Virus record (IMG/VR): IMGVR_UViG_3300047491_000422
Span: 1-42,766 of that record
Direction: 5' to 3' (one strand)
From: a virus
Length of the DNA stretch: 42,766 nt
Below, piece after piece: positions 8,784-42,766 of the stretch (within the stretch, counting starts at the first letter, position 1; each line of letters opens with the position of its first letter). Made by a program: the position numbers and the translations under genes. Below the pieces are notes generated by a model. The model was not told where the DNA came from. It worked only from the letters and a program-made list of their open reading frames with translations, and made no database searches.

Positions 8784-9788
8784 ATGGCAGCAGCACAGAG
8801 AGGTACAAGCGTAACTCTTAGACAGGATCTTATCGATCTTGTTGAAGAGATTCAATTTGAGGATCTTAACTTAACAGCAGAACGTATTGCTCCGTCTATT
8901 TCGGTATCCGAGAGAGCAGCAGAATACCCAGTTCTGCCACGTGAAGCTAAGATGAAACTGTACAATGCCAGAAGAAAGTCTGATGGTGGGTATACTAGAA
9001 TCCAGTATGACTGGGGATCAGATACCTACATCTGCTACGAATATGGTGTTGAAGCAGTTGTTGACAACGTGAGCAAGTTGGAAAATGCTCGTTTTATTGA
9101 TGAAGAAGAGCAAGCAGCTAATCGAGTCTATGAAGGTCTTCATTTGGCCCGTGAGTCTCGTGTAGCTGAAGCTTTGTTAGATACTTCAGTCTTTACCGGA
9201 GCCACTAACACTTCAGCAATAACAAACGAGTGGGATGATGCAGCTAATGCAACGCCTAAAGCTGATATAGATGCAGCTTTATCTATTTTGCGCGGTAAGT
9301 GTGCTTATGGAAAGAAAATGTTCTCAGTCATTCTTTCTGATGACTTGGTAGACTATTTCTTTGCCACTACCGAAATCAAAAACATTACCCAGTATACGAG
9401 TTATGCTGGCTTAATGACTGCACCACGTGACGTAAGGGTCCGATGGATGGCTGAATACTTCGGTGTAAAAGAAGTGATCGAGACCAGTGCAATGTTTGAT
9501 ACTTCCAAGCTTAGTAATGCTGCAAGTATTGGAAAATTCTGGTCAAACGAATACATCTTTGTTGGAAAGTTGTGTCCTCCCGGCTCAAAAATAACAACTG
9601 AAGGTGTGGTCAAGCAGTTGAAATGGTCTTTGTATTCTGACGACTACATTATCGAGGATTACGAAGAACCTTCTTATAACCGAATGGTTTATAGGGCACG
9701 TGAGTATAGAGGTATTAAAGTCAACACTGACTACGGAGTGCTTCTGACTAACGCGAAGACAACTGTAAGTTCGTCCACTAATATCTAA
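8784..9788 (+). CDS. Major capsid protein, gpE family (HK97 fold)
   Basis: A 334-residue protein, the usual length for lambda gpE-type capsid proteins, with AAGGAGAAATAACA before the ATG. Features fit phage_cap_E: an N-terminal helix with LRQDLIDLVEEIQ, a long helix around LHLARESRVAEALLD, the segment FWSNEYIFVGKLCPPG, and near the end YRAREYRGIKVNTDYGVLLT. It assembles into the icosahedral shell. It is followed by the strongest terminator in the window, which suits a highly expressed gene. Confidence 0.93.
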   Translation: MAAAQRGTSVTLRQDLIDLVEEIQFEDLNLTAERIAPSISVSERAAEYPVLPREAKMKLYNARRKSDGGYTRIQYDWGSDTYICYEYGVEAVVDNVSKLENARFIDEEEQAANRVYEGLHLARESRVAEALLDTSVFTGATNTSAITNEWDDAANATPKADIDAALSILRGKCAYGKKMFSVILSDDLVDYFFATTEIKNITQYTSYAGLMTAPRDVRVRWMAEYFGVKEVIETSAMFDTSKLSNAASIGKFWSNEYIFVGKLCPPGSKITTEGVVKQLKWSLYSDDYIIEDYEEPSYNRMVYRAREYRGIKVNTDYGVLLTNAKTTVSSSTNI

Positions 9789-20847: not shown

Positions 20848-22448
20848 AGACAATAGTGGCATGGGATTGGGATTGGGGAGATGGTAGTCCTCACGCATAC
20901 ACGGAAACAGCAGAGCATACATATACCTTGCCAGGAACATATGTGGGCTCTTTAACTGTTGAAGACAATGAGGGTGACATAGCTACATCTTATTTTACTA
21001 CTGTTGTTGCTAACACGTTAAGTGCTGTTTCATGGGATTGGGATTGGGGAGATGGTAGTCCTCACGCATACACGGAAACAGCAGAGCATACATATACCTT
21101 GCCAGGAACATATGTGGGCTCTTTAACTGTTGAAGACAATGAGGGTGACATAGCTACATCTTATTTTACTACTGTTGTTGCTAACACGTTAAGTGCTGTT
21201 TCATGGGACTTGGGAGATGAAACAGAAGATACGGGAGCAGAAGTAACCCATCTATATGCGTCGGCTGGGGTATATCCAGTGGTTCTAACTGTAGAGGACT
21301 CTTTAGGAAATACTGCTACCAGAGAAATGAGTATTGTTGTAACCGAATTAAATAGTGTAGTTTCCCACTCTTGGTCTTGGGGCGACGGGTCTACTCCAGG
21401 AGTGGGAGATACCCTTAATCACATATACTCGACGTCTGGTATATTTCCTATTACTCTCTCCGTTATAGACAATAGGGGAGAGACGGCTTCTACACAGAGT
21501 TTTATTACCTCTCGTTTGCCTGTAGACGATGCTACATTTTCTTGGGATTTTGGTAACGGGCAGATTAGCAGTGAGATAAATCCAGTAGTTATTTATGACT
21601 CTGCTGGAACTTATACTGTTTCTTTGGTCGTAACTACTCCAGACGGAATAGAGACAACAGAAACTAAAGTTGATTATATTGTCGTTCTCAGTTCTGTAGG
21701 GTTGCATACTATAGTTAATGGGTGTCTTGTCAGAGCTATAAAGAAAACAATTTCAAATGGGAATGTATATGTTAAAGATGACTCGACTATGCTGTTTAAC
21801 CCGGGCAGAAAAGTTTTATCCTTTTATCAGGAAAGTATTACTTGTTATTTTGACCCTATTTCTTTTGACAGCGGTATCTTTAGCATGTTATTTAGCTCTG
21901 GCACAATATACGTCAACAATTCACAAGTAGTGTATAAATATGCTAATTGTGTCATAACAGAAATGAGCATTTCTTGGAGTACAAACAATAGTATAAAAGT
22001 TAGTCTGAGCTTTGTTTCTCCAACAAGGACTCAAGAAGACCCAGTTGCTTATACTGAATATGGCGATAGAGTGAGCAAGTTCGATTTGTACTTAGGAGAT
22101 ATTAACAGTGAGCTGACAACAAAGATATTGGTTAACACCTTCGATCTAAAGATAAATAACACTGTTGATGTATCACACCACAGCGAAGGGAGTGACATCT
22201 CGTGGGTAAGAAGCACTATTGAAGGAGACCTTACTGTTATGAAATACACCGATACTCTTTGTAAATGGAGGGACGATGAGGAGGTATTGCAGATGAGTCT
22301 TAATATGGGGAGTTACGTCATTCGACTACCTTCGATTTTAATACGGAGTGTAGAACCAGGAGCATTAAATGCAAAAATTGGATTTGTGGCAGGAATAAAC
22401 AGGTTAAATCCTTACATGTCCTCTTTTCCAATTATTACTTCAACGTAA
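20844..22448 (+). CDS. PKD-repeat tail protein
   Basis: A 534-residue protein overlapping the previous stop (ATGA). Residues about 4-283 contain five PKD domains with WDWDWGDGS or variants (WDLGDE, WSWGDGS, WDFGNG) and H-x-Y....G-x-Y/F strands. The first two are identical over 57 residues. The first lacks its opening strands, which sit at the end of the preceding ORF. Residues about 290-534 are a separate beta-rich domain, ending in STIEGDLTVMKY and LNMGSYVIRLPSILI, that looks tail-tube-like. PKD domains usually act as extended spacers in surface proteins, so this is likely a tail fibre or adhesin arm. Confidence 0.72.
   Translation: MKTIVAWDWDWGDGSPHAYTETAEHTYTLPGTYVGSLTVEDNEGDIATSYFTTVVANTLSAVSWDWDWGDGSPHAYTETAEHTYTLPGTYVGSLTVEDNEGDIATSYFTTVVANTLSAVSWDLGDETEDTGAEVTHLYASAGVYPVVLTVEDSLGNTATREMSIVVTELNSVVSHSWSWGDGSTPGVGDTLNHIYSTSGIFPITLSVIDNRGETASTQSFITSRLPVDDATFSWDFGNGQISSEINPVVIYDSAGTYTVSLVVTTPDGIETTETKVDYIVVLSSVGLHTIVNGCLVRAIKKTISNGNVYVKDDSTMLFNPGRKVLSFYQESITCYFDPISFDSGIFSMLFSSGTIYVNNSQVVYKYANCVITEMSISWSTNNSIKVSLSFVSPTRTQEDPVAYTEYGDRVSKFDLYLGDINSELTTKILVNTFDLKINNTVDVSHHSEGSDISWVRSTIEGDLTVMKYTDTLCKWRDDEEVLQMSLNMGSYVIRLPSILIRSVEPGALNAKIGFVAGINRLNPYMSSFPIITST
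20861..21202 (+). repeat. Perfect 171-bp tandem duplication in PKD gene
   Basis: Copy one is 20861-21031 and copy two is 21032-21202; they appear identical at every base. The unit is 57 codons, one PKD domain. The third domain begins with ATGGGA at 21203 and then diverges. Identity, including silent positions, shows a recent duplication, or ongoing homogenisation, or a read-assembly duplication. Confidence 0.95.
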
Positions 22449-26067: not shown

Positions 26068-26116
26068 GTAAAGAGTATTTTGTAAAGAGTATTTTGTAAA
26101 GAGTATTTTGTAAAGA
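26068..26116 (+). repeat. Iterons: three 14-bp direct repeats plus a partial
   Basis: GTAAAGAGTATTTT occurs three times back to back (26068-26081, 26082-26095, 26096-26109), followed by GTAAAGA. Short tandem repeats next to AT-rich DNA and a replication initiator gene are typical of iteron-type origins. Confidence 0.8.
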
Positions 26117-28376: not shown

Positions 28377-29102
28377 ATGAATGAAGTTACTACGCCAATC
28401 AATCCCCTTGCAATAGCTAACGAAGGTCTAGGAAGCCCTGCAACATCTGCCCTCTCTGAAGTGGCTCCTATTAACTGGATACCCAGTTTAGCCGTTTGCT
28501 ACCCTACACATGAAGCCTTCAAAAAAGGTTTGGCTAAGTTAGGAGAATTTATTCTCAGCGGTCAAACTTCTCTTGGAAATAGTTTGGAGGTAATAGTCTT
28601 TGACTATCGAATTCATTCCAGAGTGAAGAGTACCATTGATTACAAAACCATTCTTGAATTCTTTGTACCCAGCAGTTACAGAGGTACGCTTGATGACCAT
28701 GAAGAGTATCAGGCTTTTATAGCTCAAGAGTGCGGAAAAAATGAAGAGATTGAAACTGGTTCAGATCTTTTCATGTACATTCCCAGCCAAAATACCTTTG
28801 CTACCATGTTCTTTAAAAAGACTGCTGCTAAGGATGCAGAGCCTATTTATAACCTTAGTAAGCCAGGTGCAAGGGTTGTTCGGATACATACCGTGTATGT
28901 GGAGAGTCCAAAGAACAAAACACGTTCATGGTACAACGTGTGTGCTACACCCACAAATCGAGCAATGGTCGGCAGTGGGTTACCTGATGTCGATGCTTCG
29001 GTACCTGTTCCGACAGATCAGTTTTCTAAGTTTTACACCCTCTTTACAGTGCCGCCTAAAGGCGCAGAAAGAGCCGATGAGGCTCCTTCGTTGGCAAGAT
29101 GA
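28377..29102 (+). CDS. Hypothetical early protein
   Basis: A 241-residue protein. The start at 28377 has TTAAGGAG eight bases upstream and is preferred over an earlier in-frame ATG. It is mixed alpha/beta with no membrane segment, and a mid-region (RVVRIHTVYVESPKNK then SWYNVCATPTNRA) looks strand-rich. It stands first in a tightly overlapping operon that contains the SNF2 helicase and DNA polymerase. This suggests a replication accessory protein such as a single-strand DNA binder, but no family motif supports it. Confidence 0.6.
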   Translation: MNEVTTPINPLAIANEGLGSPATSALSEVAPINWIPSLAVCYPTHEAFKKGLAKLGEFILSGQTSLGNSLEVIVFDYRIHSRVKSTIDYKTILEFFVPSSYRGTLDDHEEYQAFIAQECGKNEEIETGSDLFMYIPSQNTFATMFFKKTAAKDAEPIYNLSKPGARVVRIHTVYVESPKNKTRSWYNVCATPTNRAMVGSGLPDVDASVPVPTDQFSKFYTLFTVPPKGAERADEAPSLAR

Positions 29103-29479
29103 GACTGATTAGTAGCGTTACCCTAGACATAGAGGCTTTTCCTCTATGTCTTCCTTCAGCAGATAACCTCAATAGCGGAGGTTATCTGCTCCCTAACTCT
29201 ACTTACGCCTACAGTCCAATAGACCTTCTTATAGCTGGACTAGAGGCGGATAGATTGGGTTTAGTTGTTTCCAACTTAGCCAACTTTTATGACAAACATC
29301 GTTTTATTTTAGCTGATACGTGGGTATACTTAACTCTTGAAGACAAAGATGTCGTAAAACATCTATCTATTTGTGCAATAAAAACATCGATTTTAGAAGA
29401 GCAGAATTCAACTTGGCTAAGAGTGATGCAAAGAAACGCACCTTTATCTTTTAAATTTATACGTTTAGGAGAAATATGA
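29099..29479 (+). CDS. Hypothetical protein
   Basis: A 126-residue protein, starting in an ATGA overlap with the preceding gene and ending in another with the next. It has a helical middle (DLLIAGLEADRLGLVVSNLA, about 43-62) and no recognised motif. Tight coupling to its neighbours suggests co-regulation with the replication genes. Confidence 0.55.
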   Translation: MRLISSVTLDIEAFPLCLPSADNLNSGGYLLPNSTYAYSPIDLLIAGLEADRLGLVVSNLANFYDKHRFILADTWVYLTLEDKDVVKHLSICAIKTSILEEQNSTWLRVMQRNAPLSFKFIRLGEI

Positions 29480-31331: not shown

Positions 31332-31786
31332 GTATTCTTTTAAAAGACGGTAGAAAAGTTATTGCAAGTAATTTCACTGAAGATGGTAGTGTAGAAGTTA
31401 GAGAAGTTGGTTGTTGCGATACCTTCATCATAAAAGCAGACGAAGTGAATGGGTCAAGTGGGTTACTTAACCCTATGGAAGTATTAAAGGGTTTGGAGTC
31501 TGGGCTATCTAAGGGTGGGTCGATAGAGGAACTGACTACTTTTTTAGTCAAAGAAGCTAGATTTATTTCTATGGTAGGGGTCCAAGGCAGTCTAAAAGAC
31601 ATAGTAACATTGCTTTCTATGTATAAAAACATGCTCAGTGTTTTTAATAGAGAGTTAGCTAATTATTGCTGTTTGTTGGAAAGTAAAAAGTTATCCAACA
31701 TGGCAGCAGGAGACGATGAAGGTGTTGCTTACTGGCAAGAATGTATATCAGAAATAGGGCGTATACAGGAGAAGTTTACTTTATGA
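31328..31786 (+). CDS. Hypothetical protein
   Basis: A 152-residue protein in an ATGA overlap with the helicase gene, followed by an ATGA overlap with the polymerase gene. The N-terminal 40 residues are beta-rich; the rest is helical, with a hydrophobic stretch (LKDIVTLLSMYKNMLSVFN, about 88-106) that is probably buried rather than membrane-spanning. Its position directly before the polymerase suggests a processivity or accessory factor, but this rests on position only. Confidence 0.55.
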   Translation: MSILLKDGRKVIASNFTEDGSVEVREVGCCDTFIIKADEVNGSSGLLNPMEVLKGLESGLSKGGSIEELTTFLVKEARFISMVGVQGSLKDIVTLLSMYKNMLSVFNRELANYCCLLESKKLSNMAAGDDEGVAYWQECISEIGRIQEKFTL

Positions 31787-34059
31787 TCTACACAGACACT
31801 GAATCAATAGGGTTCTTTGGCCCTACTGTGTTGATTCAGTGGGCAAAGGATTATGGAGAGATTAATCTCCATAACCTTTGGACTCAACCTGCTGGGGTTA
31901 GCACAGATCTTATAGAAATGATAATGGAGCATGAGGTATGTACCTTTAATGGTAGTCACGACTCTTACCATTTTAATCGTACATACAATATTCTTAAAAA
32001 GTTACCGAGGTCTCTTGTCCCAACGATACTGGACTACAGGGATGTTGAGCAGGAGGAGGGTATAGATAAGTACTGTATTAAACCCAGATCTCACTTAGAT
32101 CTTCTGATCTACGGTAGAAAGAATCAGTTTCAGTCTACATTGAACCAGAAAGATATAGTTATTAGAAAAGTTCCTAAAATCCTTGCTGATCTTTTAGTGG
32201 AAGAGCTGGTGAGCAAGGTTGAGATACCTTCAATTTATTTTGCTAAAAGTAAGGTGGGGTACCATTGGTTAGTGCAGAAGCTAAGTAAGATTACCGGTAG
32301 AGAGCTTGGTCAATCGGACGATGAAGAAGATCCTGATTGGGTTAATTTACGTCTTTCTTTTAATCCTTCTGCTGCATTAAAAGTCATTATTGAAATGATA
32401 ACAGGAAAAAAACCACCTTCAATAGATGACCTTAGGCCCTTGCCTAAAGTTGAAGAACATGGTTGGTTTCCTACTTACGGAGGTTGGACTTATGTTGCCA
32501 GACACCATATACATGACTGGACTTATGACACTGAAAGACTCAAGTACGCCAGTGACGATGTTAAATACCTTCGTATCGTTAGAGAGTATCTTGGGAATCC
32601 ATTGGCGGGTGATAATGATTGTCAGTTGGCTTGGGCTGTTGGTGCTATGTTTTGGCGCGGATTCACTGTTGATTTGGTTGCTGCAAAAGCTCAACTCGCT
32701 AAAATGAAAGAGAAGGTTTCTAACTGCCCTGTGAATGTTAACGCCCCTAAACAAGTTCTACACTATCTGCAAGAAAGTTGTAGTGAAATGGAGAAGCTTG
32801 TTCTTTGTAATACGAAAAAAGAGACTTTACAAAGTATTGTAGAAGATTGGGGAGAAGATAATCCAGAACTGTGTAAGAGAATAACATTTATTCAGGAAGC
32901 TAGACGAGCATATAGGGAAATAGACCTTCTTGAAAAACTGCTAGTAGCTAAAAAGATGCATGTTAATTTTAAAATTAGCGGTACTAAAACTAACCGTGCT
33001 GCAGGAGGCAGTGAAGGTTTTGTATCTAAAGGCGGTAGTATAAACCCACAAGGGATTAAAAAGGGAAACGATATAAGATCTATTTTCACTTTAGCCAGAG
33101 AGGATGAGGAGCTAGATGGGGGTGACTTTGATGCGTTTGAAGTTTCTATCGCTGAAGCAGAATATAATGATCCAGGTCTACGAGAAGTTCTTTTATCTGG
33201 CCAGAAAATACATGGTTTGTTTGCAGAGGAGATTTATAAAGTAGATTGTGAACAGAACCCAGATAAATATAAAAGCCATCCAACTCCTCTGACATACGAT
33301 TACATTCTTTCTTTTTCTAAGTCCAATGAGAACGACTTTACTGGGTGGTATGGGAGAGGAAAGAAAGGTGTTTTTGCTTTTATGTACGGTGGACAGGCAC
33401 TAAAGATATCTCAGTGTATGCTAGTTACCGAAGAGATTGCGTATGAAGGTATACAAAACTTGTCCCATAGATTTCCAGGGATAAAACGTAGTCAGGAGAT
33501 AATATATGAAGATTTCGCAGCACTTAGGCAACCTGAAGGTCCAGGCACACAAGTTATGTGGAAAGATCCAAAGTGTTATGTTGAGTCTTTTCTTGGTTTT
33601 CGTCGTTATTTTGATCTTGAATTTAGGATTGTACGTGTTCTATTTGATATGGCGAATGATCTTCCTGATTCTCTTGTAGACGCAGGTAAAAGATTAAAAG
33701 TCAAACGACGTGAGAGAATACAAACTGGACAAGGTGCCGTTCGTAGTGCTTTATATGGAGCAGCCTTTGGTTTACAGAGTGCTGTGATGAGAGCAGCAGC
33801 TAACCATAAAATTCAATCTCCTGGAGGTGACATAACAAAGTATACACAAGCTAAAATATGGGAAGTGCAACCGCACGGGTGTGGCCAGTGGTTGGTTATG
33901 CCAATGAACATACATGATGAGATAGAGACACCTTGCCATCCTTCTGTTGCAGAGAAGGTAGAGAAGGCAGTCTATTCTAGTATAGAACATTTTAGAGAAA
34001 AAGTACCGTTAATAGGTATGTCGTGGAAAAGAAACATGAAAAACTGGGGTGAGAAATGA
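31783..34059 (+). CDS. Family A DNA polymerase with 3'-5' exonuclease domain
   Basis: A 758-residue replicative polymerase. The start at 31783 is preferred over an upstream in-frame ATG because of its ATGA overlap. The exonuclease domain has Exo I YTDTES (Asp5, Glu7), Exo II NGSHD (Asp60) and Exo III YASDD (Tyr255, Asp259). In the polymerase domain motif A is GDFDAFE (Asp448, Glu453), motif B is KKGVFAFMYGG (about 527-537), and motif C is IHDE (Asp712, Glu713). Motif A has Asp where Ser is usual at the third position. No 5' nuclease domain is present. Confidence 0.93.
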   Translation: MIYTDTESIGFFGPTVLIQWAKDYGEINLHNLWTQPAGVSTDLIEMIMEHEVCTFNGSHDSYHFNRTYNILKKLPRSLVPTILDYRDVEQEEGIDKYCIKPRSHLDLLIYGRKNQFQSTLNQKDIVIRKVPKILADLLVEELVSKVEIPSIYFAKSKVGYHWLVQKLSKITGRELGQSDDEEDPDWVNLRLSFNPSAALKVIIEMITGKKPPSIDDLRPLPKVEEHGWFPTYGGWTYVARHHIHDWTYDTERLKYASDDVKYLRIVREYLGNPLAGDNDCQLAWAVGAMFWRGFTVDLVAAKAQLAKMKEKVSNCPVNVNAPKQVLHYLQESCSEMEKLVLCNTKKETLQSIVEDWGEDNPELCKRITFIQEARRAYREIDLLEKLLVAKKMHVNFKISGTKTNRAAGGSEGFVSKGGSINPQGIKKGNDIRSIFTLAREDEELDGGDFDAFEVSIAEAEYNDPGLREVLLSGQKIHGLFAEEIYKVDCEQNPDKYKSHPTPLTYDYILSFSKSNENDFTGWYGRGKKGVFAFMYGGQALKISQCMLVTEEIAYEGIQNLSHRFPGIKRSQEIIYEDFAALRQPEGPGTQVMWKDPKCYVESFLGFRRYFDLEFRIVRVLFDMANDLPDSLVDAGKRLKVKRRERIQTGQGAVRSALYGAAFGLQSAVMRAAANHKIQSPGGDITKYTQAKIWEVQPHGCGQWLVMPMNIHDEIETPCHPSVAEKVEKAVYSSIEHFREKVPLIGMSWKRNMKNWGEK

Positions 34060-40174: not shown

Positions 40175-40530
40175 TATTTTCGGCAGGGCATCTGTATTTA
40201 ACACAAGGCATAAACTGTCTTATGTTAAATAAGTTAGGGTCAGACATTAAGGTTTTTCAAAACTCACACCTATGTACATTGCAGAGCGGTGAGAAAGTAA
40301 GACTTCTTGGTTGTTCAGTTCTGCCAAGAGCAGATCTAGTAAAATACCGAGAGGGAGATAAGTTACATCCTGACGCTTTTTTTGCCATTAAGGTGTACTT
40401 TTGTAAGGCTCGATTAGTCTCCTTGGCTATGTCTTACAATGAAAACAGTGTTAACAGACAATCAATCTTTAAAATCATTGGCTTATTAGAGCCAGTATTC
40501 CTTGGGGGTAAAAATAATGAGGTCGCCTAA
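40162..40530 (+). CDS. Hypothetical protein
   Basis: A 122-residue protein overlapping the ThyX gene end by 13 bases and the next gene by 14. It is beta-rich, with a mid-region HLCTLQSGEKVRLLGCSVLP. No family is recognised. Position between ThyX and a nuclease suggests early expression. Confidence 0.5.
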   Translation: MQSLVFSAGHLYLTQGINCLMLNKLGSDIKVFQNSHLCTLQSGEKVRLLGCSVLPRADLVKYREGDKLHPDAFFAIKVYFCKARLVSLAMSYNENSVNRQSIFKIIGLLEPVFLGGKNNEVA

Positions 40531-41407: not shown

Positions 41408-41434
41408 TTTCGGGCACTTAAAAACTTTTAGTCT

Positions 41435-41463
41435 AGGACAAAAAATCTTTTTATGTATATACT
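41435..41463 (+). promoter_or_regulatory. Promoter-like element upstream of the broken gene
   Basis: AGGACA (41435-41440) and TATACT (41458-41463) are 17 bases apart; these match four and five of six consensus positions. A start near 41470 would place the transcript 5' end right at the AGGAGG of the gene remnant. The transcript would run to the terminator at 41827, about 400 bases. Confidence 0.5.
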
Positions 41464-41483
41464 ATTATATAGGAGGTAAATAA

Positions 41484-41750
41484 ATAATCTTAGCTTACAT
41501 ATTTCCTAGAGATTCTACATAGTCTAGGAGTAGTTATTTATATAAATATAAATCAAAAACCTTAGGTAAGTTTTTGAAATATAGTTGTGTTGAAGAAGAT
41601 AACTTAATAATTCTTGTTGAACTTCCTTTGACTACAGAATACAAAATAAAAATGCAGGAGGAGTTTTTAGAGTTGGATTTAAAAAAACTGAAGATCAGAG
41701 AAATTGAATTCCCATCTAGATTTAAGAAGAGGGTAAGAGAAATACTTTAG
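41484..41750 (+). pseudogene. Broken gene: ATA in place of a start codon and an internal TAG
   Basis: AGGAGG (41471-41476) is seven bases before ATA at 41484, in the position expected of ATG. The frame then reads ILAYIFPRDST, a TAG stop (41520-41522), and continues open for 75 codons as SRSSYLYKYKSKTLGKFLKY and on to IEFPSRFKKRVREIL. It ends TAG 41748-41750. The second part could start at TTG 41574. TAG is a normal stop elsewhere in this window, so suppression is unlikely as a general rule. It reads as a recently inactivated small gene, or as one that starts at an ATA codon with a short product. Confidence 0.45.
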
Positions 41751-41826
41751 ATCTCTGGAATGAATTCTGTGAGAGTTAAATTAATTTTTTTAATTTTTTT
41801 AATTCTAAATTTTTAAATTTAAAGGT

Positions 41827-41880
41827 AAGCTCCAAGAGTTTTTGTCACCTGTACAAAAATTTTTTGGAGCTTTTTTATTT
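41827..41880 (+). terminator. Strong Rho-independent terminator
   Basis: AAGCTCCAA (41827-41835) pairs with TTGGAGCTT (41864-41872) and the interior TTTTTGT/ACAAAAA also pairs, giving a long hairpin followed by TTTTATTTT. It ends any transcript from the promoter at 41435. Confidence 0.9.
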
Positions 41881-41982
41881 TAAAATAAAATTAAAATTTA
41901 AGAAAAAAATTTCTGCTACTAAGGAACCTCGTAAAGCGGGAGGAAACAAAACTCTCAAAACTTGCCAAATCGGAAATCCCAC

Positions 41983-42163
41983 TTGACTGTTGCTCGTCAA
42001 TTGACAAACCGCACACATTTTTCTTTGTCCAGCTGGTTTAATCGTTTAAACCCTTGACGGGCTTTTGTCAAGCTTGACATATAAGCTTGACAGGTGATTT
42101 GTAAACTGCATGGGTGAAGAGCTTGACATTATTTGTAAATTGCACCGGTAAAGCACACTTGAC
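41983..42163. repeat. Cluster of TTGAC half-sites
   Basis: TTGAC occurs on the plus strand at 41983, 42001, 42054, 42074, 42087, 42123 and 42159, and as GTCAA at 41996 and 42067. Two pairs form palindromes: GTCAATTGAC (41996-42005) and GTCAAGCTTGAC (42067-42078). The last three are exactly 36 bases apart, with CTTGACA and ATTTGTAAA partly repeated. Confidence 0.75.
42035..42052 (-). promoter_or_regulatory. Operator-like site 4
   Basis: GGTTTAATCGTTTAAACC, arms GGTTTAA and TTAAACC around a short centre. Its core TTAATCGTTTAA is identical to site 3 and the complement of sites 1 and 2, about 16 kb away. It sits inside the TTGAC cluster. Confidence 0.6.
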
Positions 42164-42247
42164 AGGTGATTTATCTCCTGCCGTGTATTATAGGATACGT
42201 GATACACTATATATGGGAATTAAAACCGTAAAATTTCCAATAAACTT

Positions 42248-42333
42248 GTCGGAAAATTTTACATGTACGTAAGTCATTATATACCATAGACTTATAACAA
42301 TTACACTTTTATACTGTCGGAAAACCTTACAAG
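42248..42333 (+). repeat. Two copies of GTCGGAAAA-N2-TTACA
   Basis: GTCGGAAAATTTTACATG (42248-42265) and GTCGGAAAACCTTACAAG (42316-42333) share 15 of 18 bases. The first also forms an inverted repeat with GTAAAATTTCC at 42229. They look like regulator sites upstream of the small tandem genes. Confidence 0.6.
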
Positions 42334-42435
42334 GTGCTATCGCAGACTTGCGAAACTGCTATTGCATTAGCCATTTATCGTTTGGCATGGTAGTTGCGAT
42401 ATTATATAGGCATAACAATAACGAAGGGAACGAAA

Positions 42436-42618
42436 ATGAAAAGTTTATGCGTGGGAGTAGAGTTTAGGCTAAAAAAACTACGAGTCAATCCCAGGCTTTA
42501 TCAGTTTGGGATACGCAAGGAAAAAGTGCGCCATATTATGGTATGGGGGATAACAATATATTGTTATAAAGTTGTTTTCGGATATGCAATCCGAAAAAGA
42601 ACCGTAGGGGGGAACTAA
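42436..42618 (+). CDS. Small basic protein, first of a tandem pair
   Basis: A 60-residue Lys/Arg-rich protein starting MKSLCVGVEFRLKKLRVNPR. The start at 42436, after AAGGGAACGAAA, is preferred over an upstream in-frame ATG because the copy downstream has the same start context. Between the copies the first 10 codons differ by one in-frame three-base insertion, one silent change (TGC/TGT) and one Val/Thr codon change; this supports protein coding. Function is unknown. No transmembrane segment is certain, although ITIYCYKVVFGYAI is hydrophobic. Confidence 0.6.
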   Translation: MKSLCVGVEFRLKKLRVNPRLYQFGIRKEKVRHIMVWGITIYCYKVVFGYAIRKRTVGGN

Positions 42619-42766
42619 AATGAAAATCAGTTTATGTACGGGAGTAGAGTTTAGGCTAAAAAAACTACGAGTCAATCCCAGGCTTTATCAGTTTGGGATA
42701 CGCAAGGAAAAAGTGCGCCATATTATGGTATGGGGGATAACAATATATTGTTATAAAGTTGTTTTC
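42453..42766 (+). repeat. Tandem duplication at right edge
   Basis: 42453-42579 and 42640-42766 are identical over 127 bases, offset 187. The second copy runs into the window end, so the real repeat is longer and more copies may follow. Within each copy are inverted repeats (ATCCCA/TGGGAT, CCATATTATGG, and an 18-base perfect palindrome ATAACAATATATTGTTAT). Confidence 0.95.
42620..42766 (+). CDS. Small basic protein, second copy, cut by window end
   Basis: Begins MKISLCTGVEFRLKKLRVNP, a paralogue of the preceding gene; it follows GGGGGGAACTAAA. 49 codons are visible and the frame is open to the last base. From the eighth codon onward it is identical in DNA to the first copy. Confidence 0.6.
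   Translation, partial: MKISLCTGVEFRLKKLRVNPRLYQFGIRKEKVRHIMVWGITIYCYKVVF

Follow-up and report, generated by a model that had tools for sequence, protein, structure and literature searches.

A tandemly duplicated small open reading frame at the right end of an unfinished tailed-phage contig

Introduction

Small ORFan genes occur as tandem duplications in tailed phages. The array described here resembles such duplications in having a short unit with its own leader, neighbors that run in the same direction and a product that lacks known relatives. It differs from them in that the contig ends within the second copy and in its atypical codon usage. The comparison is a general one, and no specific family was matched. 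Phages also carry repeated RNAs, among them the ToxI-like tandem-repeat RNA antitoxins, whose repeat unit is about 36 nt. Stem-rich tandem units are common to these RNAs and to the array, but the unit of the array is far longer (187 nt), matches no family in Rfam and has no recognized toxin gene adjacent to it.

Repeats can also determine where assemblies stop. In metaSPAdes and other de Bruijn assemblies, contigs are broken at repeats and keep terminal sequences as long as maxK, with k values of up to 127 in use (PMC10914622). The contig under study is like the contig-end overlaps used by COBRA (PMC10914622) in that its end falls at a repeat and the final 127 bases recur. The difference is that the matching sequence is found 187 bases earlier in this contig and not at the end of another one. 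The window, that is, the whole stretch of DNA analyzed, is the complete IMG/VR record IMGVR_UViG_3300047491_000422 (42,766 bp, classed as linear).

Results

The record is an unfinished tailed-phage genome. It encodes a terminase large subunit with 20-25% identity to phage terminases, and its other genes include those for ThyX, an ATP-dependent DNA ligase, a cytosine methyltransferase, a ParB-like protein and a helicase. A second record, L002, is nearly identical in the left arm (99.99%) and reaches 116 bases further left than the window, which indicates that the phage genome extends past the contig. This left extension had no match at the right end of the window, and a scan for more left-extending records returned only that of L003 (77% in the terminase). 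The tandem repeat was absent from both left-arm relatives. When relatives of right-arm genes were sought for an equivalent locus in another phage, none was found for the gene at 40502 or for ThyX, and the polymerase-like gene at 31774-34056 had relatives at 35-38% only. A search of genomes for the host by means of the terminase found none, and the matches returned by a distant DNA search were short and at chance level.

The array is preceded by an AT-rich (31% GC), mostly non-coding region (41408-42435) that may hold one small ORF, a 58-codon frame at 41574-41750 with a TTG start and a good codon score (0.17). The weak in-frame resemblance of this ORF to the array product (alignment p 0.005 before correction for selection) was considered as a sign of paralogy and is not relied on. 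Four CTTGACA boxes, at 42073, 42086, 42122 and 42158, are clustered in about 90 bases (42073-42165), partly within repeats of about 34-36 bp, and are candidate regulator or replication sites. Close upstream of the array there is also a direct repeat, TGTCGGAAAA-NN-TTACA, in two copies 68 bp apart (42247-42331).

Copy 1 is a plus-strand ORF of 60 codons and a stop (42436-42618, MKSLCVGVEFRLKKLRVNPRLYQFGIRKEKVRHIMVWGITIYCYKVVFGYAIRKRTVGGN), with a predicted product of net charge +12. Copy 2 lies on the same strand (42620-42766), and a single base separates its start from the stop codon of copy 1, with a junction that reads TAA-A-ATG. The original prediction spoke of two 60-residue genes; the first is an ORF of that length, but only 49 codons of the second are visible before the open contig end and the rest was extrapolated. 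A purine-rich, ribosome-binding-like leader spans, together with the start of copy 1, positions 42426-42439 of the plus strand (GGGAACGAAAATGA). A like leader (GGGAACTAAAATGA, 42610-42623, plus strand) precedes copy 2 and also provides the stop codon of copy 1, and the two ATGs share the upstream motif GGGAAC(G/T)AAAATGAAA. The locus consists of adjacent same-strand copies, each with a start codon, a leader and an open frame, the second being incomplete. Comparison of the copies confirmed the frame-preserving insertion of 3 nt and the silent TGC/TGT change reported near the starts. The adjacent change of GTG to ACG (two substitutions, Val to Thr) was omitted from the original prediction. The N-terminal differences, one inserted codon, one silent change and one replacement codon (GTG/ACG), show no purifying selection and are too few for dN/dS.

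The two copies share an exact direct repeat of 127 nt on the plus strand, in which positions 42453-42579 are identical to 42640-42766 and the second occurrence reaches the final base of the contig. The second match begins 187 bases after the first, and the repeat unit measures about 184-187 bp. The terminal 127-mer of the contig is found twice and the terminal 128-mer once, and the contig stops exactly 127 bases past the last difference between the copies. Since 127 is a usual largest metaSPAdes k-mer, copy 2 probably ends at an assembly breakpoint. Most likely, the assembly path re-entered a 127-mer that had already been used and copy 2 was cut there; the record names no assembler, and both the assembler and k = 127 are inferred. 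The repeat itself is likely to have caused the assembly to stop. With a break at k = 127, both the length of 127 bases and the count of two would reflect the assembly, and two is a lower bound for the true copy number. The 127 identical bases of the original prediction are exact, but their number may be an assembler constant rather than the length of a biological repeat. The differing 5′ contexts of the copies give good support to a tandem duplication of two copies or more.

A second exact repeat in the contig, of 178 bases, was assembled through. It belongs to another tandem duplication (20860-21208) with a period of 171 bp (57 codons, in frame), within an ORF that appears PKD-like by eye. 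That this repeat was resolved and the array was not weakly suggests that the array is harder to resolve, perhaps with more copies. Elsewhere, an AT-rich intergenic region at 26068-26116 contains 3.5 copies of a 14-bp unit, GTAAAGAGTATTTT, with no mismatch.

The evidence for coding is divided. When the 215-nt stretch was shuffled, 0.4% of the versions had an ATG ORF of at least 60 codons on the strand of copy 1. The insertion of 3 nt between the copies also favors coding, as it preserves the frame, and frame 0 has the top codon score among the six frames. Nevertheless, the codon score of copy 1 is -0.082 (synonymous part, -0.084). Scores for 17 other short ORFs, presumed genes by their layout on the contig, range from 0.055 to 0.315, all above copy 1, and of 32 minus-strand ORFs presumed to be spurious, 81% outscore it as well; the entries at 682 and 2348, which had been read out of frame, were left out of this comparison. 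Copy 1 does not show genome-like codon usage, and this lowers the odds that it is coding, although small or foreign genes can also deviate in this way. The G+C content of the array (39%) is close to that of the genome (40%). A protein search of the 60-residue product, as had been proposed, revealed no relative in any collection searched: matches in Pfam, PHROGs, NCBIfam, PADLOC and PDB were not beyond chance, and no homologue appeared in IMG/VR (peptide patterns and two degenerate DNA patterns), in GTDB genomes or by tblastn against phages and plasmids, where the pattern searches detect close relatives only. The single-sequence AlphaFold2 model of the product was poor (pLDDT 60) and unusable, and the hydropathy of the product peaks at 1.55, no unusual value given its composition (p 0.11). 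That the unit codes for a protein is plausible by ORF length, leader and stop-start coupling; codon usage stands against it, and the claim is unproven.

All three inverted repeats named in the original prediction were located by inverted-repeat scans. ATCCCA-13-TGGGAT (42488-42512) would form in RNA, by folding, a stem of 10 pairs including G-U pairs. The perfect palindrome of 18 nt, ATAACAATATATTGTTAT, is at 42550-42567 and was also detected by the repeat scan, and TTTTCGGAT-ATGCA-ATCCGAAAA is at 42575-42597. The description of the shared part as dense in inverted repeats was too strong: the repeats exist, but their density is only moderately unusual, as 6% of the 183-nt windows of the contig reach the same perfect-arm length. 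The longest palindrome was not significant under codon permutation (p 0.086) and gave p 0.01 against frequency-weighted synonymous versions. A 26-nt perfect palindrome, possibly a terminator, lies elsewhere in the contig (9796-9821), directly after an ORF ending at 9788.

As RNA, the array folds with lower energy than its codon-permuted versions (p 0.008), but it is no outlier within the genome. The genome is structured in general (mean z-score -0.9, sd 1.4, n = 280 windows), and the array, with a z-score of about -3.5 to -3.6, ranks about 14th of 280, with ranks that are rough at 15 shuffles per window. It does not fold clearly above the rest of the genome. The single-stranded DNA fold z-score is -5.5, a figure without a genome-wide baseline. 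The TGCGT/ACGCA stem seen in copy 1 is lost from copy 2, where the sequence reads TGTAC; all other stems are identical between the copies, with no covariation. A search of Rfam with E values up to 1 matched no family to the array. The top RNA-folding window of the contig is at 29033-29216 (z -7.0), where several strong hairpins lie across the junction of two successive ORFs, the second of which starts at 29099.

Discussion

The reading that we prefer, and to which we give about an even chance, is a local tandem duplication of a small ORFan gene with a ribosome-binding leader. A segment of about 184-187 bp, one small ORFan with its leader, would have been duplicated in tandem to give at least two copies, downstream of a putative tailed-phage control region. 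The duplication may have originated by local recombination and may act through gene dosage. The copies would be translated in succession into nearly identical small proteins that are strongly basic (net +12) and may contain a single membrane-spanning stretch at about residues 34-52. The hairpins would be mostly incidental or could tune mRNA stability.

Alternatively, the unit could be a non-coding structured element, either an RNA or a hairpin DNA tied to replication or control, with an accidental 60-codon frame. This is a tentative and somewhat unlikely explanation. The poor codon usage of copy 1, the location beside an AT-rich, repeat-bearing, mostly non-coding region and the folding values, of which the one for single-stranded DNA has no genome comparison, are consistent with it, whereas the unexceptional rank of the RNA folding, the absence of an Rfam match, the loss of one stem in copy 2 with no covariation in those that remain and the improbability of such an ORF by chance argue against it. 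A more far-reaching version, in which a many-copy array of a hairpin-rich 187-nt unit at the phage end is a hitherto undescribed element, either a structured RNA or DNA linked to replication, that perhaps also encodes a peptide, is quite improbable. The atypical codons together with an intact ORF and leader would be accounted for, with true coding function, if the tandem genes had been acquired horizontally, either from another phage or from the host; this special case of the ORFan duplication, whose probability overlaps with it, is doubtful, as the G+C content equals that of the genome and no donor was found in genome, plasmid or viral collections with pattern searches that reach close relatives only. 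We regard as very unlikely that the phage has one copy and that the second is a chimeric join of strain variants or low-k contigs. The metagenomic origin of the assembly, the coincidence of the contig end with the boundary of the 127-base repeat and the confinement of the differences to the vicinity of the starts would fit such an artefact. To rejoin the same 127-mer, however, the path must leave copy 1, cross 60 unique bases (42580-42639) and reach a different second 5′ end, and a true tandem repeat is the simplest source of such a sequence.

The original prediction offered a multicopy small-protein locus, a structured RNA or both. What stands of it is the tandem duplication, with a protein product that is plausible and unproven, while the RNA reading is tentative, the array being no folding outlier within this genome and matching no Rfam family. 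Each notable feature of the locus either follows from assembly or stands out only moderately from the genome background, and duplication of a small ORFan is a modest, so far ordinary finding. It carries the caution that, near the edges of short-read contigs, the assembler can dictate how long a repeat is and how many copies are counted. An array longer than the visible part would make this a small amplified phage locus and a worthwhile target for finishing by long reads.
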